This document shows, in pieces, positions 10,125 through 30,442 of a stretch of DNA of 64,000 bases. Positions within the stretch are counted from its first letter, which is position 1. Each line of letters begins with the position of its first letter. Origin of the DNA: Flavobacteriales bacterium (GTDB lineage: Bacteria; Bacteroidota; Bacteroidia; Flavobacteriales_C; GCA-002722245); contig CANFBW010000009.1 of assembly GCA_947444925.1 (NCBI GenBank), positions 1 through 64,000 of the forward strand, written 5' to 3'. A program made the position numbers and the translations under genes. The notes under the pieces were generated by a model that was given only the letters and a program-made list of their open reading frames with translations, did not search any database and was not told the DNA's origin.

Positions 10125-11528
10125 CTAAATTAATTCTCTAACATCTGTTAAGTATCCATTGATTGCTGTGGCCGCCGCAGTAGCAGGACTCGCTAATAAA
10201 GTGCGTGCACCAGGGCCCTGACGTCCTTCAAAATTTCTATTTGATGTCGACACGCAATATTCTCCTGCAGGAACTTTATCGTCGTTCATAGCCAAACAGG
10301 CAGAGCAGCCTGGTTGGCGAATTTCAAAACCTGCCGCTTCCAGCACTTTGTCAATGCCTTCCGCGTAAATTTGTTTTTCTACTTGTTTTGATCCAGGAAC
10401 AATATATGCTTTTACATTGGCTGCTTTTTGTCGGCCTTTCACTACTTCGGCAACGATTCTGAAATCTTCAATGCGCGCATTGGTGCAACTTCCTACGAAA
10501 ACATAATTGATGGCTTTGCCCAATAATTTTTGTCCTGATTCCAAGCCCATGTATTCTAGCGCTTTGTTGAACGATTCTCTTTCTTTAACATCGTCGATGT
10601 CACTTGCGGAAGGTACATTTTCATTGATTTTGATACCCATTCCTGGATTGGTTCCATAAGTAATCATTGGCGCAATATCTGCTGCATCATAAGTATATTC
10701 AGCATCAAAAACAGCTTCCGCATCACTATACAATTCTTTCCATTCAGCCACTGCAGCATCAAATTCAGTACCTTTTGGAGCAAACTTTTTGCCATTAACA
10801 TAGTTGAAGGTTGTTTCATCGGGTGCAATCAATCCGCCCCGAGCGCCCATTTCAATGCTCATATTGCAAATGGTCATGCGTGCTTCCATACTCAAGCTAG
10901 TAATCGCTGAACCTGCGAACTCAATGAAATACCCCGTTCCGCCACCTGCTGTCAATTTAGCGATGCAGTATAAAATAATGTCTTTTGAATGAACGCCTTT
11001 TTTTAAGTCGCCATCAATGTTGATGCGCATTCTCATAGGCTTGTTTTGCAACAAACATTGTGTCGCTAAAACTTGTTCTACTTCGCTTGTACCGATGCCA
11101 AAAGCGATGCAACCGAAAGCACCGTGGGTGGAAGTGTGACTGTCGCCACAGACCATCGTCATTCCCGGACGTGTAATTCCCAATTCGGGTCCGATCACGT
11201 GCACAATACCTTGGTAAGGATGGTTGAGTCCGTACAATTCCACACCAAATTCAGCACAGTTGCTGATCAATTGATCCACTTGTTTTCGTGATAAATCGTT
11301 CTGAATTGGCAAATGCTGATTTTCAGTAGGTACGTTGTGGTCGGCAGTAGCCACTACTTGTTTGGTGTTGAATACAGGAATACCTCTTTTTCTAAGTCCT
11401 TCAAAAGCCTGTGGTGAAGTAACTTCGTGAATGTAATGGATATCGATGTAAAATACTTCGGGTCCATCGGGTATGGTAGTGACAACGTGTTTGTCCCAAA
11501 TTTTATCGAATAAGGTTTTTCCAGACAT
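10125..11528 (-). CDS. leuC: 3-isopropylmalate dehydratase large subunit
   Basis: [40 protein letters not shown]. Confidence 0.97.
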
Positions 11529-11570
11529 ATAAATAAGTGCTTTGTTTTTAATTAATAGTAGAGTAGAGGC

Positions 11571-12713
11571 TTAGCTTTTTAAAATAGCTAACAAATCCTC
11601 GTCGCTTACCGTTTTTTGTTTGTCGGCAACTTTGATGAATTTCGCGTAAATCACATTTAATTCATCTTTGGTAACGTTGTATCCCAGTAATTTTGCTTTG
11701 TAGGCAACGGCTGCTCTTCCGCTTCTGGCGGTAAGTGTAATGGTGCTTTGATCAACACCAACATCCAAAGGATTCATGATTTCGTAATTTTCGCGGTGTT
11801 TGATTACGCCGTCTTGGTGAATGCCTGACGAGTGGGCGAAGGCATTGTCACCGATAATGGCTTTGTTTGCCTGAACAGGCATTTTCATGATGTCAGCAAC
11901 CATGCGACTGGTTTTTGCCAAAAGTTTTGTATTGATATTGGTGTCGTAGCCCAAATGGCTGTGTTGTTTCAAAATCATCACCACTTCTTCTAATGCAGTA
12001 TTTCCAGCGCGTTCTCCAATTCCGTTGATAGTGCATTCAACCTGACGCGCACCATTGAAAACACCGCTGACCGAGTTGGCTGTTGATAAACCTAAGTCGT
12101 CGTGGCAATGCGTTGAAACGGTACATTTTTCAATGCCTTTGACGTTTTCCATCAAGAACTTAATTTTCTCACCATACTGTTGCGGCAAGCAATAGCCAGT
12201 GGTATCAGGAATGTTCAACACAGTTGCGCCAGCATTGACGACCGCTTGAATCACTTTGGCTAAAAAAACATTGTCGGTTCTTCCTGCGTCTTCGGCATAA
12301 AACTCAACATCTTCCACAAAGGTTTTTGCGTACTTAACGCAAAAAACTGCTTTCTCTAACAATTGATCCTCTGTCAAACGCAACTTGTGCACACGGTGCA
12401 TTTCTGAAGTAGCGATGCCGGTATGAATTCTACCTCTTTTTGCAAAAGCAATAGATTCTCCTGCTACTTTAATGTCTTGTTCTACGGCTCTAGATAACGC
12501 GCAAATGGTTGCGTTTTTAATCGCTTTTGAAATTTGAACTACTGATTCAAAATCGCCTGGACTAGAAACAGGAAAACCAGCTTCAATGATATCAACACCT
12601 AATTCCTCTAATTGTAGTGCAATAATGATTTTTTCTTCAGTATTTAATTTGCAGCCTGGCACTTGCTCGCCGTCGCGTAATGTAGTGTCAAAAATGTCAA
12701 CTTTCTTTGTCAT
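11571..12713 (-). CDS. leuA: 2-isopropylmalate synthase, short form
   Basis: [45 protein letters not shown]; 380 aa, too short for the C-terminal regulatory domain. Confidence 0.9.
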
Positions 12714-15870: not shown

Positions 15871-17031
15871 ATGCGAACGATACTATCACTAAATATTTCA
15901 AAAACTTTTTTTGTAGGAGCCTTGGTTTTGACTGCTTTGGCAACTTCATGTACTAAAGATCCAATTATATGTGATACATGCGGTATTGCCCCCTCTTATG
16001 ATATTCCTGCAACGTATGTTTTCACAAGAAGCGATTCTTCTTCTGTGGATTATGCTGGCCAAACGAATAGAATCATGCAATTGGTGGAGTTGAATGCTAA
16101 ATTAAAAACAGGTGATGCCGGACAAAAATTGGATGCTCAGGTGTTAAAAGATATGTTTGCCAACGCGGGAGGCAATGGTGGTGGTGCTTTTACTTTCACG
16201 TCTACTCGTCAGTTGAAAGACAAATGTTTTTCTTTGGACGCGTCGATATATGCGGCTTTGTATGATTCTGTGGCCCTTGCAAGCGACAGTGGTGCAGTGG
16301 GCGCTTTGGCGGCAAACGGTAAAGCGGGTTTAATTAAAAGAAGCAGCGGATCAACTATTTTGATTGATAAAAATGGATTTGAGTATACACAGGTCAACCA
16401 AAAAGGCCTGATGGGCGCAGTTTTTTTGTACCAGATTTTCAACTCGTATTTATCAGAAGCTAAAATTGGTGATGCGGTAGACAACACTACTTTGGTAGCC
16501 GGAAAAAATTATACTGCCATGGAGCATGCGGCAGATGAGGCTTTTGGATATTTTGGTGCTCCCATCGATTTTTCGTCCAACTATACAGGTACGGGCACAC
16601 CTCGTTACTGGGCAAGCTACAGTAAAGAAATGGATGCTGTTACAGGGTGCAGCGACAGAATCATGAAAGCATTTAGAACCATGAGAGCTGCCATCAGCAA
16701 TAAAGACATGACGGTTAAAAATGCCCAACGTGAAATTTTGTATGTCGAGTTGGATAAATTAGTGGCGTCGTGCATCATTCATTATGCTAACGCTGTTTTG
16801 AAGGAAACCAATCCTGGCAATAAGTTTCACGCGATGTCTGAAATGTACGGATTTATGCAAGCTTTGAAATACAATACGGTGGAGAAAAGAAAAATTACTA
16901 ATTCAGAACTGACTGTTCTTTTTGGATACTTGGGAACTAATCTTTGGAATGTTACGGAACAAGGGTTGACCAATCTTAAGAATGATTTGGCAACACGTTA
17001 CGGACTGGAATCAATTAAAAGCACATTGTAA
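15871..17031 (+). CDS. DUF4856 lipoprotein
   Basis: Lipobox LATSC; SSVDYAGQTNRIMQLVEL, AMEHAADEAFGYFGAP. Confidence 0.8.
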   Translation: MRTILSLNISKTFFVGALVLTALATSCTKDPIICDTCGIAPSYDIPATYVFTRSDSSSVDYAGQTNRIMQLVELNAKLKTGDAGQKLDAQVLKDMFANAGGNGGGAFTFTSTRQLKDKCFSLDASIYAALYDSVALASDSGAVGALAANGKAGLIKRSSGSTILIDKNGFEYTQVNQKGLMGAVFLYQIFNSYLSEAKIGDAVDNTTLVAGKNYTAMEHAADEAFGYFGAPIDFSSNYTGTGTPRYWASYSKEMDAVTGCSDRIMKAFRTMRAAISNKDMTVKNAQREILYVELDKLVASCIIHYANAVLKETNPGNKFHAMSEMYGFMQALKYNTVEKRKITNSELTVLFGYLGTNLWNVTEQGLTNLKNDLATRYGLESIKSTL

Positions 17032-17033
17032 TC

Positions 17034-18119
17034 ATGAACTTCAGAATACTCGGCATCATATCTGTGCTTTTATTTTCATCTTCCTGCACAGACAAGCAAA
17101 AAGCAGCAGAGAAAACTTTTGATTTAAAAGGAATGTTGGAAAACGTTGGAAACAATATTATCGTTCCTTCTTACCAAAGTTTTCAAAGTACTGTAAATAT
17201 TCTGAGTACTGCTGTTGATACCTTCGTGGCTAATCCTACGACGCAGCATTTGCTGGATACGAGAGCGGCATTTAAAAGTGCTTATATCAGCTGGCAAAAA
17301 TGCGATGTTTTTGATTTTGGTCCGGCGATGGATCATTCTCTGCGCGCTAATTTCAACGTGTATCCTGCTGATACTTCAAAAATAACCAGCAATGTTGGTT
17401 CAGGTTCAATAAATATGGATCTTTTGGATAACTCTGCTGCTAAAGGTTTTCCGGCCATTGATTTTTTACTGTATGGCGAAAATAAAACCGATGCGTATAT
17501 ATTGTCTCTTTATATGACCGATGCTAAAGCGAACAACAGAAAACAGTATTTAAAGGCTTTAGTGAGTGCTATAAGAACCAAAACTGATGCAGTAGTGGGT
17601 GCGTGGAGCGCTTACAAATCCGTTTTCAATTCTAGTTTAGGTTATAGCGTTGGAAGCTCTTCGGGTTTGCTGGTGAATGCCATGAATGAATATTATGAAA
17701 GATATTTGCGCGATGGAAAAGTAGGTATTCCGGTGGGCATACGCTCTTTGGGAATTGCCTTGCCAAAACAAACGGAAGCATATTACGGTGGATTTTCATC
17801 AGAATTATTGAATGCAAGTATTCAGTCTTTTTACCTTCTTTATTTAGGAAAGCATGGATCTACCAATGGCTTAGGTTTGGATGATCACTTGGGGGCATAC
17901 GATGGCGCAAGTATTGACCAAACTTTACAAAGTTATCTTACGGATGCTTCTGCGGCTTGCGCTACCTTGAGCGATCCTTTGTCGCAAACTATTACCAACA
18001 ATCAGTCTTCAGTAGAAGCTGTATATTATAAATTGCAAAAAGTTATCATCCCTTTTAAAGTAGATATGCCTTCAAAACTAGGCATATTAATTTCTTATCA
18101 GGATAACGACGGCGATTGA
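17034..18119 (+). CDS. Imelysin-family (peptidase M75-like) lipoprotein
   Basis: Lipobox SSSC; IVPSYQSFQS..., WQKCDVFDFGPAMDHSLR, GFPAIDFLLYGE, GSTNGLGLDDHL. Confidence 0.8.
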   Translation: MNFRILGIISVLLFSSSCTDKQKAAEKTFDLKGMLENVGNNIIVPSYQSFQSTVNILSTAVDTFVANPTTQHLLDTRAAFKSAYISWQKCDVFDFGPAMDHSLRANFNVYPADTSKITSNVGSGSINMDLLDNSAAKGFPAIDFLLYGENKTDAYILSLYMTDAKANNRKQYLKALVSAIRTKTDAVVGAWSAYKSVFNSSLGYSVGSSSGLLVNAMNEYYERYLRDGKVGIPVGIRSLGIALPKQTEAYYGGFSSELLNASIQSFYLLYLGKHGSTNGLGLDDHLGAYDGASIDQTLQSYLTDASAACATLSDPLSQTITNNQSSVEAVYYKLQKVIIPFKVDMPSKLGILISYQDNDGD

Positions 18120-19456
18120 TGAAACGCTTTTTAACCTTCATTCATCAGCCTGTGCATATTGCCCCACTGGCAATTTTCAGAATTTTGTTTGGTGCGATGA
18201 TGTTTTTCAGTATTCTTCGCTTTGCCGCTAAAGGATGGATTTACGATTTGTATGTTAAGCCTCAGTTTTTCTTTGCTTATCCCGGGTTTGAATGGTTAAA
18301 ACCTTTGGGTGCGAGTGGAATGTATTTTGTTTTCGCTGCTTTGGCCCTGAGTTTTTTAATGGTGATGCTGGGCTTGTTTTACCGTGTTTCAAGCGTTGCT
18401 GCCTTTTTGCTTTTTACTTATGTTGAATTGTTGGATAGAAGCAATTATCTAAATCATTATTATTTCATCAGCATCGTTTCTTTTCTCTTATGCTTTTTGC
18501 CAGCGCATCGTTTTTTTTCACTGGACGTTAAAAGAAAGCCGTCGCTTAAAATTACCCATATTCCCTTTTGGATGACCGCTGCTATCAAGCTGCAATTGGG
18601 GATGGTTTACTTTTTTGCAGGAGTGGCTAAAATTAATTACGATTGGTTGTTTAACGCAATGCCTTTGCAACTGTGGCTGCCACCGCGACAAGATATGCCG
18701 CTCATTGGCTTTTTATTTAAATATACCGGGGTGGCCTATTTTTTCAGTTGGTTTGGTTGTATTTATGATTTAACGATTCCCTTCTTTTTGTGTTTCAGGA
18801 AAACACGTCCGTGGGCTTATTTTTTTGTAATTGTTTTTCATGTGTTAACCGGAATGCTCTTTTATATTGGTATGTTTCCCTACATCATGATTGTTTCAAC
18901 CCTGGTGTTTTTTGGCGAAGAGTTTCATTTGAAAGTGATTTCCTTTTTTGGGGGGAATCAACTCTCGAACAATAAAATCAATGCTCTTCCAACTCTAAAA
19001 ATGACATTGCTGCCGGTCTTTTTAAGCATCTTCTTTTTTATTCAAATTCTTCTTCCTTTTCGTTATATCCTTTATCCTGGAAAATTATTCTGGCATGAAG
19101 AAGGCTACCGCTTTTCGTGGAGGGTGATGCTCATGGAAAAAGGAGGCTATGCCGTCTTTAAGCTAAAAGATAAGGATAGCGGCAGAAAATGGGAGGTGAA
19201 AAACTACGATTTCCTCACTCCAGTGCAGGAAAAAATGATGAGTACTCAGCCAGATATGCTACTTCAGTTTGCCCACTTTTTAGAAGCAAAATACCATAAA
19301 GAGGGTATTAGGAATCTGGAGATAAAAGTGGAATGTTATGTAACTTTGAACGGCTCATCCAGCCAGCTTTTAATTGATCCCGAAGTTGATTTAACGCAGA
19401 TTGAAGAAGGGCTTGGCAGCAGAAAATGGGTGTTACCTTTTAGAGAGAATGAATAA
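18119..19456 (+). CDS. HTTM / vitamin K-dependent gamma-carboxylase-like membrane protein
   Basis: PLAIFRILFGAMMFFS, multiple TM helices, DRSNYLNHYYFI, HxEGYRFSWRVMLMEK. Confidence 0.85.
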   Translation: MKRFLTFIHQPVHIAPLAIFRILFGAMMFFSILRFAAKGWIYDLYVKPQFFFAYPGFEWLKPLGASGMYFVFAALALSFLMVMLGLFYRVSSVAAFLLFTYVELLDRSNYLNHYYFISIVSFLLCFLPAHRFFSLDVKRKPSLKITHIPFWMTAAIKLQLGMVYFFAGVAKINYDWLFNAMPLQLWLPPRQDMPLIGFLFKYTGVAYFFSWFGCIYDLTIPFFLCFRKTRPWAYFFVIVFHVLTGMLFYIGMFPYIMIVSTLVFFGEEFHLKVISFFGGNQLSNNKINALPTLKMTLLPVFLSIFFFIQILLPFRYILYPGKLFWHEEGYRFSWRVMLMEKGGYAVFKLKDKDSGRKWEVKNYDFLTPVQEKMMSTQPDMLLQFAHFLEAKYHKEGIRNLEIKVECYVTLNGSSSQLLIDPEVDLTQIEEGLGSRKWVLPFRENE

Positions 19457-21866
19457 GTTTTTATTGCATATAGTTTCAATCGCTGCTTTTTTGTTGCTCC
19501 CTTTTGCTGCTTTCTCTTTATCGATTTCAGGACGTGTGATTTGTGCCGAAGATTCGTCATCAATAGAGCACGCTCAAGTGATGATTGAAGAAACACAGCA
19601 ATCTGTATCTACCGATAAGAATGGTGCTTTTTCTTTTGTAAATGTTGCTCCGGGTAAATATTCCTTGGTAGCAACTTATCAAATGAAGGCACAACAAACA
19701 TTAATTGTTCATCTTATCGAACAAGATATTTGGATTGATTTCAAGCTATCTCCCGACGTGATTAAAACAGATGTGGTGTTAATTGAAAAAGGAAAAAACT
19801 TCAGTATTACAAAGTTGAATGGGGTAGAGGGGACCTCCATTTACGAGGGTAAAAAATCGGAGGTAATTGATGTTGCTAGTACGCCGGGCAATAAATCTAC
19901 CAACAACGCCCGTGAAATTTATGGCAAAATCAGCGGATTAAATATTTGGGAAAGTGATGGCGCGGGTATTCAATTGAGTATTGGTGGCAGGGGATTGAAT
20001 CCGAGCAGGGTTTCAAATTTTAATACCCGTCAGAATGGCTACGACATTAGTGCTGATGCTTTGGGTTATCCTGAGAGTTATTACAGTCCGCCTACAGAAG
20101 CCATTGACAAAATTGAAATTGTTCGAGGGGCTGCTTCTTTGCAATACGGAACGCAGTTTGGCGGCTTTTTAAATTTTAATTTGAAGAAAGGTCCCGAAAA
20201 CAAAAAATTTGAGTTTACTACTCGCCAAACCTTAGGCTCATGGGGATTTGTTAATTCATTTAATAGTGTGGGAGGTACGGTAGGTAAACTGACGTATTAC
20301 GCTTTTGCGCAAAGAAAACAAGGCGACGGATGGCGGTCGAATTCTGAATTTTCAGTGAATTCAGGCTATGCTTCAGTGCAGTATAAATTTTCATCTAAGT
20401 TTAAAGTCGGATTGGAATACACTGCTATGCAATACCTTGCTCATCAACCGGGCGGATTGACCGATGCCATGTTTAAGCAGAATGCTCAACAATCCATTCG
20501 TGCGAGAAATTGGTTCAATGTAAACTGGAACCTAATGGCATTGACCATCGATTATGAATTCAATGAAAAAACCCGATTGAACATTCGTAATTTCGCACTC
20601 CTCGCTTCCCGTGATGCACTAGGGACTTTAGATCAAATCAATCGTGCCGATGAAGGGTTAGAAAGAAATCTACTAAGCGATCAATTTAAAAATTTCGGAA
20701 GTGAAGTGCGTTTGTTGCATTACTATTCGCTGCAGAAAGTTTCTTCTGTATTTTTAATTGGAGGCAGATATTATCAGGGCCACACCGATAGAAAACAAGG
20801 CTTGGCGGATAGCACTGATCAGCCTCATTTTGATTTTTTACATCCAGCGAATCCGGAGTTTTCAGCGTATACTTTTCCAAGCAGAAACATTTCAGTGTTC
20901 AGTGAAAACATTTTTAAAATCACTAAATACTTAAGCCTAACTCCGGGTGTTCGTTTTGAATATATCGATACCCGCTCCAGTGGATATTACAATATTGAAA
21001 ATAAAAACCTGGCAGGACAGGTGATTTACCAAGAACAAAAAACAGACAACAGAGAGAGTCAGCGTTCACTGCTTTTGGCTGGTTTAGGCTTGAGTTATTG
21101 CCCTACAAAAAACACGGAAATATACTCTAATTTTTCGCAAAACTACCGCTCCATCAATTTCAACGATATGCGCGTGGTGAACCCTAACTTTCAGGTTGAT
21201 CCTGAGCTGAAAGATGAAACCGGATTTACCTATGATTTAGGGTACAGAGGGTCGTATAAAAACTTTATGTATTTCGACGCTACTTTCTTTTATTTAGGAT
21301 ACAACAATCGAATAGGTTCGGTGCTTAAAACCGACACCAATACCTATACTGCTTACTTGTTGCGCACCAATGTTTCTGACTCTAAAACCTACGGAATAGA
21401 AAGTTTAATAGAAGTAGATTTATATAAAATTTTTAAAGGAACGAAAGACATGAAGATTTCTGTTTTCAGTAATTTTTCATTCATGAATGCGCTGTATAAT
21501 GGCAGCAAAGAAAAGGCTTTTGAAGGAAAACAGGTAGAGCTGGTACCTCCAGTACTGTTTAAATCGGGATTGAAATACAGATACAAAAAGTTTGGGGCGT
21601 CTTACCAATATTCATATACAGCTAAACAATTTACTGATGCTACCAACACCGAGTTTACAGCCAATGCCGTGAATGGGTTGGTTCCTGCGTACAACGTAAT
21701 GGACATAAGTTTATCATACTCCTACAAGAAATTTACTTTGGAAGGAAGCATCAATAACCTATTGGATAATCGATATTTCACTAGAAGATCCGAAGGTTAT
21801 CCAGGGCCTGGAATTATTCCTTCCGATGCAAGAAGTTTTTATTTGACTTTGCAGTTGAAGTTGTAA
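19449..21866 (+). CDS. TonB-dependent outer membrane receptor (FecA-like)
   Basis: Carboxypeptidase-regulatory-like N-domain, plug (EIYGKISGLNIWESDGAGIQLSIGGRGLNPSR, IEIVRGAASLQYGTQFGG), C-terminal beta-barrel ending LTLQLKL; ATG at 19449. Confidence 0.92.
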   Translation: MNKFLLHIVSIAAFLLLPFAAFSLSISGRVICAEDSSSIEHAQVMIEETQQSVSTDKNGAFSFVNVAPGKYSLVATYQMKAQQTLIVHLIEQDIWIDFKLSPDVIKTDVVLIEKGKNFSITKLNGVEGTSIYEGKKSEVIDVASTPGNKSTNNAREIYGKISGLNIWESDGAGIQLSIGGRGLNPSRVSNFNTRQNGYDISADALGYPESYYSPPTEAIDKIEIVRGAASLQYGTQFGGFLNFNLKKGPENKKFEFTTRQTLGSWGFVNSFNSVGGTVGKLTYYAFAQRKQGDGWRSNSEFSVNSGYASVQYKFSSKFKVGLEYTAMQYLAHQPGGLTDAMFKQNAQQSIRARNWFNVNWNLMALTIDYEFNEKTRLNIRNFALLASRDALGTLDQINRADEGLERNLLSDQFKNFGSEVRLLHYYSLQKVSSVFLIGGRYYQGHTDRKQGLADSTDQPHFDFLHPANPEFSAYTFPSRNISVFSENIFKITKYLSLTPGVRFEYIDTRSSGYYNIENKNLAGQVIYQEQKTDNRESQRSLLLAGLGLSYCPTKNTEIYSNFSQNYRSINFNDMRVVNPNFQVDPELKDETGFTYDLGYRGSYKNFMYFDATFFYLGYNNRIGSVLKTDTNTYTAYLLRTNVSDSKTYGIESLIEVDLYKIFKGTKDMKISVFSNFSFMNALYNGSKEKAFEGKQVELVPPVLFKSGLKYRYKKFGASYQYSYTAKQFTDATNTEFTANAVNGLVPAYNVMDISLSYSYKKFTLEGSINNLLDNRYFTRRSEGYPGPGIIPSDARSFYLTLQLKL

Positions 21867-22447: not shown

Positions 22448-23290
22448 CTACTCAATAATTACCTTAGAAGTAAAACTTGCCTCTTTTGTGTTTACTCGAA
22501 CAAAGTAAATACCTGCTCCTTGTTTTATTTCCAATGAAAGGGATGTCGTCCCTTTATTTACAGAAATATTTTGTAGTTGTTTACCTGTATAATCAATAAC
22601 TACAATGTTTTCAACACCTCCTTTCGCTGCACTTAAGTCTAAAAAAACTTTGCCATCAGCAGATGGATTAGGGTAAATTTTAAAAGGATTGTTATTTATC
22701 TCTTGCACTCCTACAGATTCTTTGGAATAAACCGTTAGCTTTTTAGTGTATGCATAATCTCCTGTGCTTTGTCCGTTGGCATTTGCGGCAACAAAAGCAG
22801 CGTATAAAGTAACCGTGTCATTTAAGTCACTTGCATCAGGAGCAGTCCAATCAAAAGTCCATGAATTTGAACCATTGGTAGCAGAAATACTGGCAGGCTT
22901 ATGAGTAGCATACTTATTCGCTCCTTCCCATGATCCAACTACCTGAGCGCGATTTTGACTTCCTGCTGCAAGTGTGCCTACAGAAGTTGAATCATGCTGT
23001 CCCCAAGCCATTACCTGAAATCCAAAAGCAGTAATATTCGCTTGTGAAATAGTAGCAGTAATTTGATAAGTCTGACCGGATTCAAATCCGCCTGATGGAA
23101 TATTTGAAGTTAATTCAATCGTAGCGGGACCTTGATCAATACCATGTGAAGCATGACAACCGGACATTCCGCAAGTCATTTGTTTAGGTGCTCCCGTATG
23201 ATCGGGATAACCGTAATCAGTAAAAGATAAAAAAGGAAGACTCAGTCCAATAATTAAGAGCGAGCCAACAACTATATTTTTTGTTTTCAT
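22448..23290 (-). CDS. T9SS-sorted secreted protein with choice-of-anchor V/Reeler-like domain and CX4CH motif
   Basis: YPDHTGAPKQMTCGMSGCHASHG; C-terminal FKIYPNPSADGKVFLDLS...GIYFVRVNTKEASFTSKVIIE sorting tail. Confidence 0.75.
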   Translation of the reverse strand: MKTKNIVVGSLLIIGLSLPFLSFTDYGYPDHTGAPKQMTCGMSGCHASHGIDQGPATIELTSNIPSGGFESGQTYQITATISQANITAFGFQVMAWGQHDSTSVGTLAAGSQNRAQVVGSWEGANKYATHKPASISATNGSNSWTFDWTAPDASDLNDTVTLYAAFVAANANGQSTGDYAYTKKLTVYSKESVGVQEINNNPFKIYPNPSADGKVFLDLSAAKGGVENIVVIDYTGKQLQNISVNKGTTSLSLEIKQGAGIYFVRVNTKEASFTSKVIIE

Positions 23291-23310
23291 TTTTTGTTTG
23301 TTAAATGTGA

Positions 23311-24135
23311 TTAATCAATAATTTCAACTTTCTGAAGTTCTATAGCCTGAAGGACGTTACTTCTTATCATATCGGCATAATAACCGCCGTGTACATTGGC
23401 TTGAGGGAAATTATAGCCGCCAAAAGAATAATTTGAACCATCCTGATTTTTCAGCACTTTGTTAAAATCAAGCGTAAAATAAACGCGTGTTGTTTTACCT
23501 TCTTTAATTTCAAACTTAGGCGTAGTGACAAGCATATTTCCGAAGAAACATGACATCATTCTTAAATCAGTACCTATTCCGAAATGAAAATAATCTCCGG
23601 CAACACCTGCGCCTTTTCCTTCAGCTAATAGAAATACATAGCCTGAATTCCAGTTCCAGTACATTCCCGGTACTGAAAGGTCAAGAGGATAAGGATTAGT
23701 TGTTGCGTCTTTATGGTTGACTTCACTCGGCACGCCAATATCGTAACGAATATCTGAATATTGACCAACGGCAGCATTCATAGTTAATTTATAACTCTGC
23801 ATTCCATAACCGGCATCAAAATTTGCGCTGTCATAATTCACCAATTTGGTTCTGTATCCATCCACACCTACTTCTGAACCATCGGCTTTAGAAAGTCCAA
23901 TATCACTGATGTAATACTTTAAAGTCGTTAATTCATATACTTCTCCTGCCGGATTGGTATAGGCAGAATCATAATAGAGTCCTTTATCTCCTACCATCGG
24001 AGTAAATATTAGCTCTAATTTTCCCTTTGGAGTTGGTATTTCCACAATGGGTTTATTTTCTTCCGGCTTTTCTTTTTTACAGGAAGAAACAAAAGCAGCA
24101 ACAAGCACTGCGCATAGTATTGCAATTTTTTTCAT
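23311..24135 (-). CDS. MbnP-family lipoprotein (copy 1)
   Basis: Lipobox FVSSC; GKLELIFTPMVGDKGLYYDS..., LTTLKYYISDIGL, VPGMYWNWNSGYVFLLAEG. Confidence 0.8.
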   Translation of the reverse strand: MKKIAILCAVLVAAFVSSCKKEKPEENKPIVEIPTPKGKLELIFTPMVGDKGLYYDSAYTNPAGEVYELTTLKYYISDIGLSKADGSEVGVDGYRTKLVNYDSANFDAGYGMQSYKLTMNAAVGQYSDIRYDIGVPSEVNHKDATTNPYPLDLSVPGMYWNWNSGYVFLLAEGKGAGVAGDYFHFGIGTDLRMMSCFFGNMLVTTPKFEIKEGKTTRVYFTLDFNKVLKNQDGSNYSFGGYNFPQANVHGGYYADMIRSNVLQAIELQKVEIID

Positions 24136-24211
24136 GTGTTTAATTTTATTTGAAATTTTTAAAATGGCGATGCTCTGAAAGATAATTTCATTTAGAACAT
24201 TGGAATATTAT

Positions 24212-24583
24212 TTAAGCCGAAATAGGCGGGCGGAGTATGGCAGCAATATATAATCTGCCGTTTTGAGATAAATAAGGAGAAAAGTTTTGCGTTTCTTTAG
24301 TCGGTGGCGGTATAGTTATCATTTGAATACTATTCATTACCGCGACTTCTTCTATTTTTTCTTTTGATCCCGAACGAGAAGAACCATCACTATTTTCTTC
24401 TTTTTCAATTTGCTTTTTCAAATGACACTGCCCTTTACAACAATTATTCTTTTGCGTTCTTTTTTCACACAAATTTTTCGCAATGTAATTTCTATTCACC
24501 TGAAAATTTTGATAAATGATTGTTGTTTTGAAGCATTGTAAAAGCATCAACAACAGAAGAAATATAGATAGTAATTTTTTCAT
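24212..24583 (-). CDS. Small 'CxGxCHLKKQ' protein (copy 1)
   Basis: IYQNFQVNRNYIAKNLCEKRTQKNNCCKGQCHLKKQIEKEE; stop overlaps the 24580-25638 gene boundary by 4 nt. Confidence 0.65.
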   Translation of the reverse strand: MKKLLSIFLLLLMLLQCFKTTIIYQNFQVNRNYIAKNLCEKRTQKNNCCKGQCHLKKQIEKEENSDGSSRSGSKEKIEEVAVMNSIQMITIPPPTKETQNFSPYLSQNGRLYIAAILRPPISA

Positions 24584-25638
24584 TTATATAACGGATCACT
24601 AAAGCGAGTGTCGTGAATAAAAGTGTTGTCGGTTAAGGTGTTTAGAAAACTTATGATACTTTGAATTTCATCGACAGAAAGAGCTTGTCCATTCAAAATA
24701 ACAGGATCAACATTACTCATGTAATATGGTTTGTTTATATGGTAATCAATGGCTTTATCAAGAGTTTTAAATCGACCATCGTGCATATAAGGAGATGAAA
24801 CCTCTACGTTTCTTAACGAAGGCATCTTATAGCTGTGCATATCCTGTACAGATTCTGAAATACGCATTCTACCGCTATCTTGTAGAGATACATTGGGTTC
24901 TAAGCCAATATTTCGGTAAGAGAAATTGCTAAATAAGGGTGGCGCATGACAAGAAGCGCATCGCTGATTAAATATAGATTTTCCAATTTCTTCGTCTGCC
25001 GTAAAAGCATAACCTGCTTCTCCACGCTGAATTCTGTCATACTTTGAATTTGAAGAAACAAGCGCCCCTAAAAATTGAGCAAAGGATTTAAGAACTCTTT
25101 GTGTTGTTACGGCTTCATCACCAAAGGTTTCTTTAAACATTTTTCTATAAGATGCATCTGCCGAAAGGAAGGCAATAACATCATTCATATTTCCATCCAT
25201 TTCCAAAGAATCATTAATAGGAGCTAAAGGCTGAACTGTAATATGGTTGATTCCTCCGTCCCACATGAAAGAAGTTTGCCAATTCAAATTAAAAAGAGCG
25301 GGGGCATTTCTTTTTCCAAACTGTCTGTCAATACCATGACTTCGGGCATGAGCAGCATTGGCAAATGCGGCAAATTGCTGATGGCAACTGCCGCATGAAA
25401 TAGAACCATCCCTCGATAATTTCTTCTCATAAAATAATCTTCTTCCTAAATTAAATCCTGCATCTGTTAAAGTGTTTTCTTCAAAATTGTACACTGGCTG
25501 AGGCCATCCCTGAGGCACAGTGAAGGTTACTCCTGTTACTTGAGGAGATGGGATTTGAGGATCTTTTGAGCATTGAAAAAAGAATAATGTCAAAGACAAA
25601 ACCATCATCAAAGCAGCTATTTTATTTTTTGCTTTCAT
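24580..25638 (-). CDS. Diheme cytochrome c peroxidase / MbnH-like enzyme
   Basis: Two CXXCH sites (CGSCH, CASCH), lipobox FFQC, RNAPALFNLNWQTSFMWDGG, MPSLRNVEVSSPYMHDGRFKTLDKAIDYH. Confidence 0.9.
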   Translation of the reverse strand: MKAKNKIAALMMVLSLTLFFFQCSKDPQIPSPQVTGVTFTVPQGWPQPVYNFEENTLTDAGFNLGRRLFYEKKLSRDGSISCGSCHQQFAAFANAAHARSHGIDRQFGKRNAPALFNLNWQTSFMWDGGINHITVQPLAPINDSLEMDGNMNDVIAFLSADASYRKMFKETFGDEAVTTQRVLKSFAQFLGALVSSNSKYDRIQRGEAGYAFTADEEIGKSIFNQRCASCHAPPLFSNFSYRNIGLEPNVSLQDSGRMRISESVQDMHSYKMPSLRNVEVSSPYMHDGRFKTLDKAIDYHINKPYYMSNVDPVILNGQALSVDEIQSIISFLNTLTDNTFIHDTRFSDPLYK

Positions 25639-25640
25639 TG

Positions 25641-26468
25641 TTAATTCGTTATTATAGAAAACATATCAGCAAAATTATCAGCCATTTTTTTCGCATCGGC
25701 TCCCGGTGCATGAATTACATATAGTGAAGAAAAACTAATGTTTTGTGGACTGGTGAACCATTCCAACACATCTGCTTTAACTTTCAATTTTGGTGATTCA
25801 GTTTCTGATACAGTCATTGCAGTTGGAAAATCAAGACCAACTGTTTTTAATACTGAGTTACTACCTGAAAATCCACCCACGTGATATAAAACAGTTTTGT
25901 CAACTTCAGGAGATTTACTTGAATAGCCCTCAAACTTCGCCATGATATAACCTGTGTTCCAGTTCCAAAACATCCCTTTAGCAGGATCTAAGTCTCCTCC
26001 CTGAATTCCTGTGACATTTTTTACGCTGTCCACACCAATCATAAAAGAAATGGAGATATACTTTTTAAAAGGCACATTTTTCAACGGAATTTTTAGTGTG
26101 TTGTCATTGAATGCCGAAAGCAGATGATAGCTTTCACTTTCCGTATATACTGAATTGTCATCCGCAATCAGTTTAACATTACTGATGTAATAATTGAAAG
26201 TGGAAATAGTAAAAGTATCTCCATTTGCGTTTTTATACTCGGAAGTTTCCAATACCAAAGCACTGTCGCCCACCGTGTTTTTAAACAATAAATTGAAAGC
26301 GCCTGTTGCAACAGGAGGTATATTAGTATCCTCTTTCGGCTTATCCTTTTTACAAGAATTGAAGGCAGTCGCCACTAAAAAAATACCAAACCACTTTAAA
26401 AGTGATTTATGAATCAATTGTTTTTTGCTCCTTGCTGAATCCATTTTAAAACTAATTTGGTGGTACAA
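25641..26468 (-). CDS. MbnP-family lipoprotein (copy 2)
   Basis: Lipobox AFNSC; GAFNLLFKNTVGDSALVLETSEY, ISTFNYYISNVKL, AKGMFWNWNTGYIMAKFEG. Confidence 0.8.
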   Translation of the reverse strand: MYHQISFKMDSARSKKQLIHKSLLKWFGIFLVATAFNSCKKDKPKEDTNIPPVATGAFNLLFKNTVGDSALVLETSEYKNANGDTFTISTFNYYISNVKLIADDNSVYTESESYHLLSAFNDNTLKIPLKNVPFKKYISISFMIGVDSVKNVTGIQGGDLDPAKGMFWNWNTGYIMAKFEGYSSKSPEVDKTVLYHVGGFSGSNSVLKTVGLDFPTAMTVSETESPKLKVKADVLEWFTSPQNISFSSLYVIHAPGADAKKMADNFADMFSIITN

Positions 26469-26812
26469 GTGTCTAACTTTCCTGATGTTGGCATCGGAGC
26501 TGTATTGGAAGTCATAGAGGCATAAACAATGCTTGACTTCGGATCTCCTAAATTGATATAGCCTCCACCTTTAAGACTGTTCAGCGATTTGGTGTTTTCT
26601 AAATTGAGTCCGCCGGGTGGATTGTTTCCTGAGTGGCAACCTAAATTAGAACAGCTTTTGTTAAAAATGGGTTGTATGTTTTTACTGAACGATATAGTAT
26701 CCGGAGTAGAACAGACATCTGTTTTACTGTTATTATTATCGTCAATAACCGTTTTCGTACAAGAGAAAAAAATTATTGATGACACACTAAAAATCAATAT
26801 GTATTTTATCAT
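26414..26812 (-). CDS. Small lipoprotein with single CX4CH haem-like motif
   Basis: Lipobox IFFSC; ISFSKNIQPIFNKSCSNLGCHSGNNPPGGLNLEN...LVLKWIQQGAKNN resembles monohaem c-type domains. Confidence 0.75.
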   Translation of the reverse strand: MIKYILIFSVSSIIFFSCTKTVIDDNNNSKTDVCSTPDTISFSKNIQPIFNKSCSNLGCHSGNNPPGGLNLENTKSLNSLKGGGYINLGDPKSSIVYASMTSNTAPMPTSGKLDTCTTKLVLKWIQQGAKNN

Positions 26813-26821
26813 AAATTATTT

Positions 26822-27589
26822 TTATTCAAAATGAAACATTCCCGGCAGGTTCCCCGCAATTTTTGTCGCCAAAGCATTTCCGTTATCAGAAACGCTGTTT
26901 AACTGTAAATTCAGTGCATTCGTAATATCTACGCCGTCAAATATTTTTGAATAATCAATTATCATGTGCGCATATCCTGTGCTTCCTTCCATGATGCTAA
27001 AATTTTCATCAGGCATTTGCACTTCAACATAATGAGCGTTTGTTCCAACCTTATAAGAGAAGTCAGCCATTTTCATACTATGATTGTAAGAGGTGTCAAT
27101 TTTTCCCTGAATATTGGCGAAAATATATCCATCGGGTTGAGAGGTATTCCCAAACCACATTTCACTATGGTTTAAAATTGTAGAATCGCTTGGCGTTGTC
27201 GATGCTAAAGCGTTAGTAGTCGCATCCAATCCTACTTTAAAACGAACGGCTTTGTAATTCCCTACTGGTACGTTATTAAAAATGAAAGCCTCCGTCGCCA
27301 AATCTTTCAACATTTTTCCTTTCGGCACATCCAATAAAGAACCATCTAATTTTACCAATTGAATTCCTGAAATATACAATTGCGCAAAATCCAAAGACAT
27401 TGAATCGCCGTTGGAAGCCAAATAATTTTCGCCGTAGTCTTCCACTTCGCTATCTCCAACATTGGTGTGTAAATGAAAGGCGAACTTTCCGTATTTAATG
27501 GTTTCGGTGGTGTCGTTTTTTTTGTTGCAGGCACCTAATAATACTATTGCTGCCAAACTTAACATTAATCCTTTTTTTCTGATTTTCAT
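26822..27589 (-). CDS. MbnP-like lipoprotein (copy 3, divergent)
   Basis: Lipobox LLGAC; GKFAFHLHTNVGDSEVEDYGENYLASNGDSMSLDFAQLYISGIQLV; lacks the WNW motif, has EMWFGNTSQPDGYIFANIQG. Confidence 0.7.
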   Translation of the reverse strand: MKIRKKGLMLSLAAIVLLGACNKKNDTTETIKYGKFAFHLHTNVGDSEVEDYGENYLASNGDSMSLDFAQLYISGIQLVKLDGSLLDVPKGKMLKDLATEAFIFNNVPVGNYKAVRFKVGLDATTNALASTTPSDSTILNHSEMWFGNTSQPDGYIFANIQGKIDTSYNHSMKMADFSYKVGTNAHYVEVQMPDENFSIMEGSTGYAHMIIDYSKIFDGVDITNALNLQLNSVSDNGNALATKIAGNLPGMFHFE

Positions 27590-27599
27590 ATTTTTTGTT

Positions 27600-28664
27600 T
27601 TAAAAAGTTAATGCCCAATAAGCGTTAATACTATATTTTATAGGAGATTGTATTCCGTTTAGGTTTTGATATAGTGGCAAACCAAATTCTGCTGATATTT
27701 TTTGATTTTTTAAGCCCCCTCTTAAAGGTTGCCAAGTAGTGCCAATAAAAACAGAAGCTGTTTGCCCCCCATAATTAGCGGTATTTGCAGAAGGTTCGTT
27801 GTGTCGGTATAAAGAAGTATCAACTCCTTGAATCTTGCCGCTAATTGCATATTCAACACGTAAAGAGGAACTCAGAAAATTTAACCACCGATAGGCATAC
27901 CAAGCATTTCCTGTAAATTCATTGCCGCGACTGTATCCATATTTATTGTAGCCAAGATGAATATTGGCATTGCCTTGCACTCCAAAAGTGTATGTTTTTT
28001 TGTGGTACAAATAAGTTGCTCCCGGTAGAAAATCAAAAGTGCCTGATCCTAATTGCATCATGTATGACAGGTGTTTCCCTATATACTCGGTCATTCCGTT
28101 ACTTTCTCCCAATACGTCAATACTCCCCGTAGGAATAGAAAATCCAATATTCATCAACAATTTATGTCGAGTCTCATTAACCAAAGAGTAAATACCATAA
28201 AGCTTTACATCTCCAAGCCCCTGTGAATTCATTTGGTGAATATTAGAGCCTCCCATTCCATGATCATGGTGATCACTCATGCCAAACATGGTCATATTCA
28301 TTGTATTTTGATTGTAATTAACCATTGCCATTAAAGTGAGTCGTTTATTAATGCCATACATCAGCATTAACATATGCATATTCATTTGCATACTTTCAGG
28401 AGTCATCAAGTAAGTCTTGAAAACCTCGTCACTGGTAACGGAAGAGTTGCCTTGATAAATACCTTTCATCGCCATATTCATATAGCGATAAGAAAGCATC
28501 CATTCTCCTTTAGAGTGAACGTGTCCAAGCATCACTCCTGCCGGAAGAGCTACTTCGTTATTACAGCAAGACGATTCGCAAATCTGCGAGCTATCTTGTT
28601 GCGCCATAATTTCTGCTGAATGTATAAATACAAACAGAAAAAGGCATACAATTGAAAATCGCAT
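27600..28664 (-). CDS. Met/His-rich outer-membrane beta-barrel ('transporter'-type)
   Basis: Signal peptide; PAGVMLGHVHSKGEWMLSYRYMNMAMKG, MQMNMHMLMLMYG, MNMTMFGMSDHHDHGMGG. Confidence 0.75.
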   Translation of the reverse strand: MRFSIVCLFLFVFIHSAEIMAQQDSSQICESSCCNNEVALPAGVMLGHVHSKGEWMLSYRYMNMAMKGIYQGNSSVTSDEVFKTYLMTPESMQMNMHMLMLMYGINKRLTLMAMVNYNQNTMNMTMFGMSDHHDHGMGGSNIHQMNSQGLGDVKLYGIYSLVNETRHKLLMNIGFSIPTGSIDVLGESNGMTEYIGKHLSYMMQLGSGTFDFLPGATYLYHKKTYTFGVQGNANIHLGYNKYGYSRGNEFTGNAWYAYRWLNFLSSSLRVEYAISGKIQGVDTSLYRHNEPSANTANYGGQTASVFIGTTWQPLRGGLKNQKISAEFGLPLYQNLNGIQSPIKYSINAYWALTF

Positions 28665-28712
28665 TAAATACCTTTGAAATTAAACATTGATTTATGTGGC
28701 AAACGCCAGTAA

Positions 28713-29147
28713 TCAACATTTGGGCGGCTGAAAAACGCCTTGAGGTAAAGAGGCGGAAACTGAAAATGAATAAGCGGTTGAAATGCCAGTAGCTATGGTG
28801 ATTTGAGAATGGAAAGAATAAGCAGTTTCTGCAAAATATTGTAATTCAATCTTCTCCTTTGAATCCTTAGAAAAAGGTGTTTGTTCCCTTTTTTCTTCTT
28901 TCTTCAATTGCTTTTTTAAGTGGCATTTCCCGTCACAATGCATTTTTGGTTTTGCTTTGTTCTCGCAATATTTACGGGCTATCTCGGTTTTGTTGAGTTG
29001 GTAATTCACCACAATAAAAAGCTTGCTGAACATTTGCATTGAAATGGCAAACAATAATATTATGGAGAATACTCTTTGAATCACCAGACAAATATATAAA
29101 AATCCAAGTGGTATGAAAAAATAATATTTTAGGAAGATGAAAAACAT
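28713..29147 (-). CDS. Small 'CxGxCHLKKQ' protein (copy 2)
   Basis: VNYQLNKTEIARKYCENKAKPKMHCDGKCHLKKQLKKEE...SKEKIE aligns with 24212-24583; true start may be internal. Confidence 0.6.
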   Translation of the reverse strand: MFFIFLKYYFFIPLGFLYICLVIQRVFSIILLFAISMQMFSKLFIVVNYQLNKTEIARKYCENKAKPKMHCDGKCHLKKQLKKEEKREQTPFSKDSKEKIELQYFAETAYSFHSQITIATGISTAYSFSVSASLPQGVFQPPKC

Positions 29148-29530: not shown

Positions 29531-30300
29531 TTTGCCACGGGATGCTCAACGGTGTTGTAGTAAAAGGAAAACATGAATCGATGGTCAGCCAAGAACTTTT
29601 TATGAAGGTGAATGATATAATCTCCCAATCAACCCGTTCGGAGGTTCCCCACTTAAAAGAAAACGAAAACCTGCCCCTGAAGATATTTATTAAATGCGAC
29701 CATTGTGGTTCACCCTTCACCGGATATTTAATGAAGGCAAGGGGGATTTATTATTACAAATGCCGCCAAAAGGGATGTCCCAATAACAAAAGTGCAAAAC
29801 AGATGAACGAGTTATTCTTAAACCTCTTGGGAGAATATACGCTGAAAGAAAAGCTTATGAAGGTTTGTCGCTTTCATTTGGAACATCTTTTCTCCTCGGT
29901 AGCCAAAGAGCAGGTTTCAATAGAACAGGCTTTAAAAGCAAATCTTACCGAAGTGACCAAGAAACTGGAGAAGATAGAAGAAAAGCACTATGCTTTAGAC
30001 GAAATGAATAAAGAGACCTTCGATAAATTCTACTCGAAGTTTAAAAAGGAGCAGGAAGGCATTTTGATGGAATTGGCAAAATTACCAAAATCGAGTTTGA
30101 ACATTTCCGGTATTATAAAATTAGGTTTAGAAAAAGCCCTAAGACTCCCTGAATTATGGGCTTCCGGCATTATCAGACAAAAGGAAATGTTACAGAATTT
30201 GGTGTTTCCTGAAGGTATTCTATATAATCGCGAAACCGACGGAGTTCGAACATTAAAAGTGAGTGAGTTATTTGCGGGAATTGCCCAATTATGTAAGGGA
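29527..30300 (+). pseudogene. 5'-truncated large serine recombinase (zinc-ribbon and coiled-coil part only)
   Basis: GMLNGVVVKGKHESMVSQELFMKVNDII, CDHCGSPFTGYLMKARGIYYYKCRQKGCPNNKSA; no N-terminal catalytic Ser domain; ORF tail is antisense tRNA-Ser. Confidence 0.8.
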
Positions 30301-30311
30301 GGGGGAGGAAC

Positions 30312-30353
30312 AAAAAAAGGGACTTCCCCTTTTTTATCAGGTAAGTCCCTTTC
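30312..30353 (-). terminator. Terminator of the tRNA-Ser transcript
   Basis: AAAGGGACTT...AAGTCCCTTT followed by TTTT on minus strand. Confidence 0.75.
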
Positions 30354-30354
30354 A

Positions 30355-30442
<88 letters not shown>

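Follow-up and report, generated by a model that had tools for sequence, protein, structure and literature searches.

A composite cell-envelope locus of Bacteroidota, putatively for copper handling, with MbnP/MbnH-like, outer-membrane barrel and candidate leader-sensor parts

In Methylosinus trichosporium, the copper protein MbnP (Protein Data Bank (PDB) code 7l6g) adjoins the diheme enzyme MbnH (6e1c). Its copper site reportedly comprises a histidine, a methionine, a solvent ligand and a kynurenine derived from the first tryptophan of the WxW motif. In the CorA/CorB and MopE/SACCP systems of methanotrophs, a copper-repressible Cu(I) protein with kynurenine is co-transcribed with a diheme protein resembling cytochrome c peroxidase (CCP) (PMC3912023); MbnP itself is not markedly similar to MopE or CorA (PMC3621798). 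The small proteins CruR and CutF regulate copper genes during translation (PMC9426467, PMC9973294), and CruR operons include MbnPH-like, TonB-dependent transporter, PCuAC and Sco genes (PMC9426467). Copper entry across the outer membrane of Bacteroidota is poorly known. We analyzed a 64,000-nucleotide stretch of the genome of an uncultured Flavobacteriales bacterium (contig CANFBW010000009.1, positions 1 to 64,000; the window), in which a single minus-strand run from 29084 to 22448 encodes, in this order, a small protein with a CxGxCHLKKQ motif (CHLKKQ2), an outer-membrane barrel, the MbnP-like lipoprotein MbnP3, a lipoprotein with a CX4CH motif, MbnP2, a diheme enzyme, a second small protein (CHLKKQ1), MbnP1 and a protein sorted by the type IX secretion system (T9SS). 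The positions that a previous sequence-only reading had given for these nine open reading frames (ORFs) were all reproduced.

The locus resembles that of M. trichosporium in that an MbnP gene adjoins the diheme gene and MbnP2 keeps the GMxWxW and HxG motifs, and it can be likened to CorA/CorB and MopE/SACCP as a putative kynurenine-type Cu(I) protein paired with a CCP-like diheme protein. Unlike in M. trichosporium, there are no methanobactin genes here, the axial tyrosine of the enzyme is replaced by histidine, an extra MbnP-fold protein without WxW is present, and a barrel module is fused to the pair. Judged by the gene order found in relatives, the run combines two recurrent modules. Module A consists of an MbnP and a diheme enzyme, usually with overlapping genes, and module B of a CHLKKQ protein, the barrel, an MbnP3-type protein and a CX4CH lipoprotein. 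The two are found both apart and together in relatives. Among 80 barrel loci surveyed, module B recurs in Bacteroidota and, besides the window, is wholly or partly joined to module A only in L064, L067 and L054, the last being the copy in another species (G008).

We consider it reasonably probable that this run serves to handle copper in the cell envelope of Bacteroidota and is a composite of modules A and B together with CHLKKQ sensors. It is built from known kinds of components, of which the barrel family and the Bacteroidota leader family are apparently the undescribed ones; no description of either was found in the literature searched. More tentatively, and with less than even confidence, we propose an undescribed copper-supply route of Bacteroidota that would combine a multi-phylum methionine-ladder Cu(I) channel, a lineage-specific nascent-chain sensor with an [F/I][H/Q]PP arrest core, a kynurenine-independent MbnP-fold receiver and a naturally occurring equivalent of the Tyr294His variant of MauG coupled to a mono-heme cytochrome. 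Module B would bring copper across the outer membrane: the metal would be reduced, pass through the barrel as Cu(I) on a ladder of methionines and then be received by the lipoprotein MbnP3, the site of which would not need kynurenine. Module A, to which we assign MbnP2, the diheme enzyme and also MbnP1 with a leader of its own, would function like MbnP/MbnH, with the enzyme using H2O2 to convert the first Trp of WxW into kynurenine and thereby completing a Met/His/Kyn Cu(I) site. Copper binding to the CxGxC motif of the exported CHLKKQ nascent chain would alter translation over the C-terminal [F/I][H/Q]PP, and this change would set the expression of the gene block behind it. The gene content, the two modules, the MbnP fold and family, the PP/CxGxC layout, the methionine parity, the MbnH phylogeny and the axial His come from sequences or models; which metal is involved, the direction of transport, Cu reduction, Trp oxidation and ribosome arrest are inferred.

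The diheme enzyme (24580–25638; all coordinates are on the minus strand of the window unless stated otherwise) is a lipoprotein with two CXXCH motifs that matches CCP_MauG with 171 bits. Its best NCBIfam model is MbnH (TIGR04039, 194 bits), followed by MauG (158 bits), both scores lying below the equivalog cut-offs (362.85 bits for TIGR04039), and the best PDB match of a family profile is 6e1c (252 bits). The phylogenetic tree groups the enzyme with MbnP-linked enzymes in a clade of 42 members (support 99), where that of L067 is its sister (support 98), and the sole bacterial CCP (BCCP) with a Met ligand in the tree (L244) lies outside this clade. The proposed identity as an MbnH rather than a canonical BCCP is thus sustained. 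A single-sequence PDB search had ranked the Nitrosomonas europaea BCCP over MbnH, an order that the family profile and the tree reversed.

Residues H86, W126, Q136, E146 and H231 of the enzyme are kept and align with the catalytic Gln/Glu, the bridging Trp and both heme histidines. The position of MauG Tyr294, the sixth ligand of the second heme, is occupied by His300 (codon 24739–24741): the phmmer match pairs residues 59–300 with residues 8–294 of the MauG chain and ends there. The best MauG entry in that search is 3orv, which we take to be the Y294H mutant; this mutant is said to lose bis-Fe(IV) and the synthesis of tryptophan tryptophylquinone. The aligned His, which the sequence-only reading had missed, counts against our proposal: because the Tyr ligand on which bis-Fe(IV) chemistry in MauG and MbnH is based is lacking, and given the phenotype ascribed to Y294H, one cannot be sure that this enzyme oxidizes Trp. 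That His300 and not the neighboring Tyr299 is the ligand is argued for by the sister enzyme of L067, which reads DVHTSG in this region. At the axial position, 81 relatives have Tyr (75), His (3), Lys (1, in L064) or Phe (2). A CX4CH lipoprotein is encoded near all four His/Lys enzymes, compared with 0/82 Tyr enzymes (Fisher p 6e-6, a value that ignores phylogeny and has only about two independent changes behind it).

The CX4CH lipoprotein of the window (26414–26812; CSNLGCHSG followed by MPxSGKL), the gene of which is overlapped at its end by the start of MbnP2, is a probable mono-heme c-type cytochrome, with covalent heme attachment predicted from its motif. It resembles LIC11213_lipo weakly (33 bits, cut-off 100), and the heme motif and the MP pair are kept in six relatives, with profile matches below the cut-off. 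The diheme enzyme might accordingly be a cytochrome-fed, BCCP-like peroxidase, in which His300 would provide a His/His second heme, electrons would come from the CX4CH protein, and H2O2 would be detoxified at a copper-rich surface. MauGs conserve Tyr294, and CCPs have Met or His there (PMC7567364), which agrees with this possibility, as do the retained catalytic residues and the restriction of the cytochrome neighbor to the His/His/His/Lys enzymes. Against it stand the placement in an MbnP-linked Tyr clade away from the Met-ligand BCCP, the location of the gene directly behind the canonical MbnP2, and the small number, perhaps two, of independent His/Lys changes; we regard it as somewhat unlikely. 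A natural His in place of Tyr294 in the MauG/MbnH superfamily raises the question of whether Trp can be converted to kynurenine without bis-Fe(IV) chemistry. Among related loci, two adjacent diheme genes lie beside one or two MbnPs in L214, L219, L221, L223, L227 and L239; one of the two in L223 has Phe in place of the axial Tyr.

The barrel (27600–28664) passes no family cut-off in Pfam or NCBIfam. It was modeled with confidence (pLDDT 89.6, pTM 0.83) as a β-barrel of about 12–13 strands, and its best Foldseek matches are the COG4313 channel 4rl8 and FapF (E 7e-17, TMt 0.76); the fold is that of the COG4313-type 12-stranded barrels. Identity to these channels is 14%, and the methionine ladder and the copper gene context set it apart from them. 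In an alignment of 52 sequences from Bacteroidota, Proteobacteria, Verrucomicrobia and others, twelve methionines are at least 80% conserved (56, 62, 64, 66, 92, 94, 96, 98, 102, 112, 114 and 122), each of which has an even position in strands one to three and hence lies on one face of three adjacent strands. In the rest of the barrel, polar, conserved residues predominate at even positions and hydrophobic, variable ones at odd positions. Because of this parity, the methionines probably face the lumen. A shorter, more divergent barrel (hits of 1e-5 to 1e-12) in CHLKKQ-MbnP-MbnH clusters (L162, L188, L190, L206, L207, L228 and L258) may represent a second branch of the family.

The suggested link to copper is strengthened by the neighbors of these genes. 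Eight alphaproteobacterial loci have a PCuAC-type gene, which in six cases lies no more than about 35 bases from the barrel, and five loci contain SCO1-type genes; one member each of the PCuAC and SCO1 clusters, as well as the SCO1 of L064, were confirmed with Pfam. A paralogous cluster on contig C45 of the source genome, which contains a fourth MbnP in the order CHLKKQ, barrel, MbnP3-type, CX4CH and second CHLKKQ, lacks a diheme gene and diverges from a gene for an HMA-domain protein (36.5 bits). The HMA-domain gene of L006, divergent from the second CHLKKQ-barrel-MbnP cluster, has behind it a further gene for a predicted outer-membrane protein that belongs to no Pfam family (10357–11825, plus strand).

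The locus could alternatively serve another soft or borderline metal (silver, zinc or iron), or export copper under excess rather than import it. An operon converging on the run (15871–21866, plus strand) is in keeping with this idea; it encodes a lipoprotein, an imelysin-like M75 lipoprotein, a membrane protein similar to HTTM/vitamin K gamma-carboxylase and a TonB-dependent receptor, and looks like a separate metal-uptake island. The HMA, PCuAC and SCO1 neighbors and the MbnP family favor copper, the PCuAC/SCO association suits supply and not detoxification, and we consider another metal or export unlikely. Within the copper-supply proposal, the barrel would be comparable to the TonB-dependent copper transporters OprC and CrtA, which also provide copper at the outer membrane from CruR-headed operons (PMC12914433), but it is small and has neither plug nor TonB features. 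If it is indeed a Cu(I) channel, it would constitute a TonB-independent copper route in several phyla.

The CHLKKQ proteins, which the sequence-only reading had listed among the uncharacterized extra components, look by their anatomy like copper sensors of the CutF/CruR kind rather than structural parts. The 3.24-Mb genome contains the DNA pattern of the CxGxCHLKKQ motif at exactly three sites, all of them inside MbnP clusters; read backwards, the pattern does not occur. CHLKKQ2 (28713–29084) heads the run and probably starts at the GTG at 29084 (123 aa), in agreement with the starts of its homologues, although the ORF itself opens at 29147. Its motif lies at 28908–28937, and its C-terminus PPKC contains a Pro-Pro pair (28722–28727, two codons before the gene end) as the putative arrest core; the gene may be regarded as a candidate copper-sensing upstream ORF (uORF). 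CHLKKQ1 (24212–24583; motif at 24410–24439) ends in RPPISA, heads MbnP1 and is joined to the diheme gene by an ATGA overlap. Neither passes a family cut-off in Pfam or NCBIfam. A Pro-Pro is found within the last 12 residues of all 51 distinct homologues, as opposed to 3/230 Bacteroidota control genes, and the distance from CxGxC to it is 63–74 residues (mode 66). The linker in between has an identity of 0.09, against 0.48 for the Cys motif and 0.54 for xxxPP. A barrel or an MbnP gene follows within 1.2 kb in 51 of 56 copies (median gap 76 nt), and in every copy with a labeled gene in this range (51) that gene is one of the two. The anatomy of a copper uORF, i.e., a small exported protein with a Cys motif, a C-terminal Pro-Pro and a same-strand downstream gene, was observed in 51/51 cases, the N-terminal hydrophobic segment being judged by eye.

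These features are shared with CruR (DUF2946, PF11162) and CutF, which are small exported proteins with a Cys motif, a C-terminal Pro-Pro at near-fixed spacing and a first position in copper operons. Outside Bacteroidota, the barrel is frequently preceded directly by a small ORF that has Cys pairs and a C-terminal Pro-Pro, often RAPP or RGPP; in this GC-rich background, 35/189 small control ORFs also have such a Pro-Pro, some of them being those same upstream ORFs. The upstream ORF of L098 reaches 23.2 bits with DUF2946, just below the cut-off of 23.7. Copper-related RAPP/RGPP uORFs have been reported missing from Bacteroidota (PMC12992588), and the looser Pro-Pro search of the CutF paper lists this phylum (PMC9973294). 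Translation arrest by CHLKKQ, if true, would fill the reported gap. NCBIfam also includes a family of small proteins named for their Cys and PP motifs (NF047658, HYC_CC_PP), which one CHLKKQ homologue matches weakly with 14.6 bits, below the 28-bit cut-off.

Several observations weigh against the sensor and supply proposals. CHLKKQ1, CHLKKQ2 and four homologues have no match to DUF2946; the motif is CxGxCH and not CXXC or CxxxC; the Pro-Pro is preceded by F/H/Q in [F/I][H/Q]PP rather than by RA as in RAPP; and the spacing is 66, not 45. A predicted hairpin (28682–28721) that covers the final codons and the stop of CHLKKQ2 and precedes the barrel start is weak (z -0.15 in the window, with two double-changed pairs in five relatives), and a stem-loop over the barrel start, as in the CutF mechanism, is suggestive at best (z -2.4 to +0.4 in ten loci; alifold -0.46 kcal/mol). 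No copper regulator was identified nearby, and the barrel could be an efflux or a general channel. The CHLKKQ proteins might also be mature, membrane-anchored copper chaperones with an incidental Pro-Pro, as their N-terminal hydrophobic segment and conserved Cys/His motif would allow; the Pro-Pro in 51/51 homologues, a linker that is unconserved and nearly constant in length, and CruR-like ORFs occupying the same position in other phyla make this quite unlikely. In L058 (10860–13454; from Cytophaga aurantiaca, which has the barrel-MbnP3 module) and L006 (4636–7607, with a T9SS tail), a large protein with a conserved HFGSKGPFGG start is encoded behind a further CHLKKQ-type protein, so that such leaders may also control secreted proteins.

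The three lipoproteins score 105.1, 179.3 and 78.7 bits with Pfam MbnP (PF20243, cut-off 27 bits), in line with their earlier assignment to this family. The first Trp of WxW is invariant in 117/117 aligned MbnPs, and sequences with M-x-W-x-W (n=77) have Met in 100% and the HxG His in 72/77 cases. MbnP2 (25641–26468; GMFWNWN and HVGG), the presumed partner of the adjacent diheme enzyme, retains the Met, WxW with the kynurenine-site Trp, and the His. The divergent MbnP1 (23311–24135) retains Met and WxW (GMYWNWN), and a nearby His (YFHFGIG) is only a candidate for the HxG His, as its alignment is uncertain. By analogy, these proteins would be expected to bind Cu(I) after Trp-to-kynurenine conversion. 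A profile of 49 WxW MbnPs matches 7l6g (E 1.5e-4) and aligns its GMAWNWQAG and VHVG with M-x-W-x-W and H-x-G; it superseded a 15-sequence profile, which gave only a weak match to this entry, and a single-sequence PDB search with MbnP2, which returned chance matches only. A plain WxW pattern had suggested many MbnH-linked MbnPs without the motif, an impression overturned by the alignment. Because the aligned first Trp is invariant, a missing WxW alone does not imply independence from MbnH.

MbnP3 (26822–27589) belongs to module B and has FHLHT and EMWF, with no second Trp and with Lys in place of the copper His. In 18 module-B MbnPs the second Trp is absent, the His is Lys in 15, and FHLHT and MW[F/M/Y] are conserved. 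The MbnP3 model (pLDDT 87) has as its top six, and sole significant, Foldseek matches the six chains of 7l6g (E 4e-8 to 2.5e-7), which points to an MbnP fold with a different site. Module B recurs without MbnH, including in G006, a 100% complete genome without a CCP/MauG gene, and also in G142, of which the completeness is not given; MbnP3 is thus taken to be independent of MbnH. The sequence-only reading had proposed a self-contained copper system with one MbnH and three MbnP substrates, of which the family membership and the copper link hold and the three substrates do not. One such system, with the small proteins as extra periplasmic copper parts, agrees with the common family, with the diheme gene being the only CCP/MauG-family gene of the genome and with the one Trp that MbnP3 keeps in the WxW column, but the altered site of MbnP3-type proteins, their travel with barrel and cytochrome even where no diheme gene exists, and the Pro-Pro and spacing of the CHLKKQ proteins make it the least likely of the alternatives.

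MbnPs are present in 95/129 Bacteroidia genomes, mostly as simple MbnP-MbnH pairs. Three to six copies are ordinary in many Bacteroidia, and two per cluster were seen in 4/80 regions and three in 0/80; order-level surveys, which covered nine genomes only, added little.

The last gene of the run (22448–23290) encodes a T9SS-sorted protein of the choice-of-anchor-V/Reeler type with a CX4CH motif (choice_anch_V 89.8 bits, Por sorting domain 51.4 bits). A promoter scan returned fewer sites than shuffled sequences did. The G008 copy of the locus has protein identities of 96–100% to the window; its barrel and cytochrome are identical, and its MbnP3 is split into two overlapping ORFs (L026:9864–10627, minus strand, and L054:10076–10839), so that either the gene is broken or the assembly is at fault. 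Directly upstream of the run, a recombinase zinc-ribbon fragment (29542–30423, plus strand) is possibly the remnant of a mobile element.

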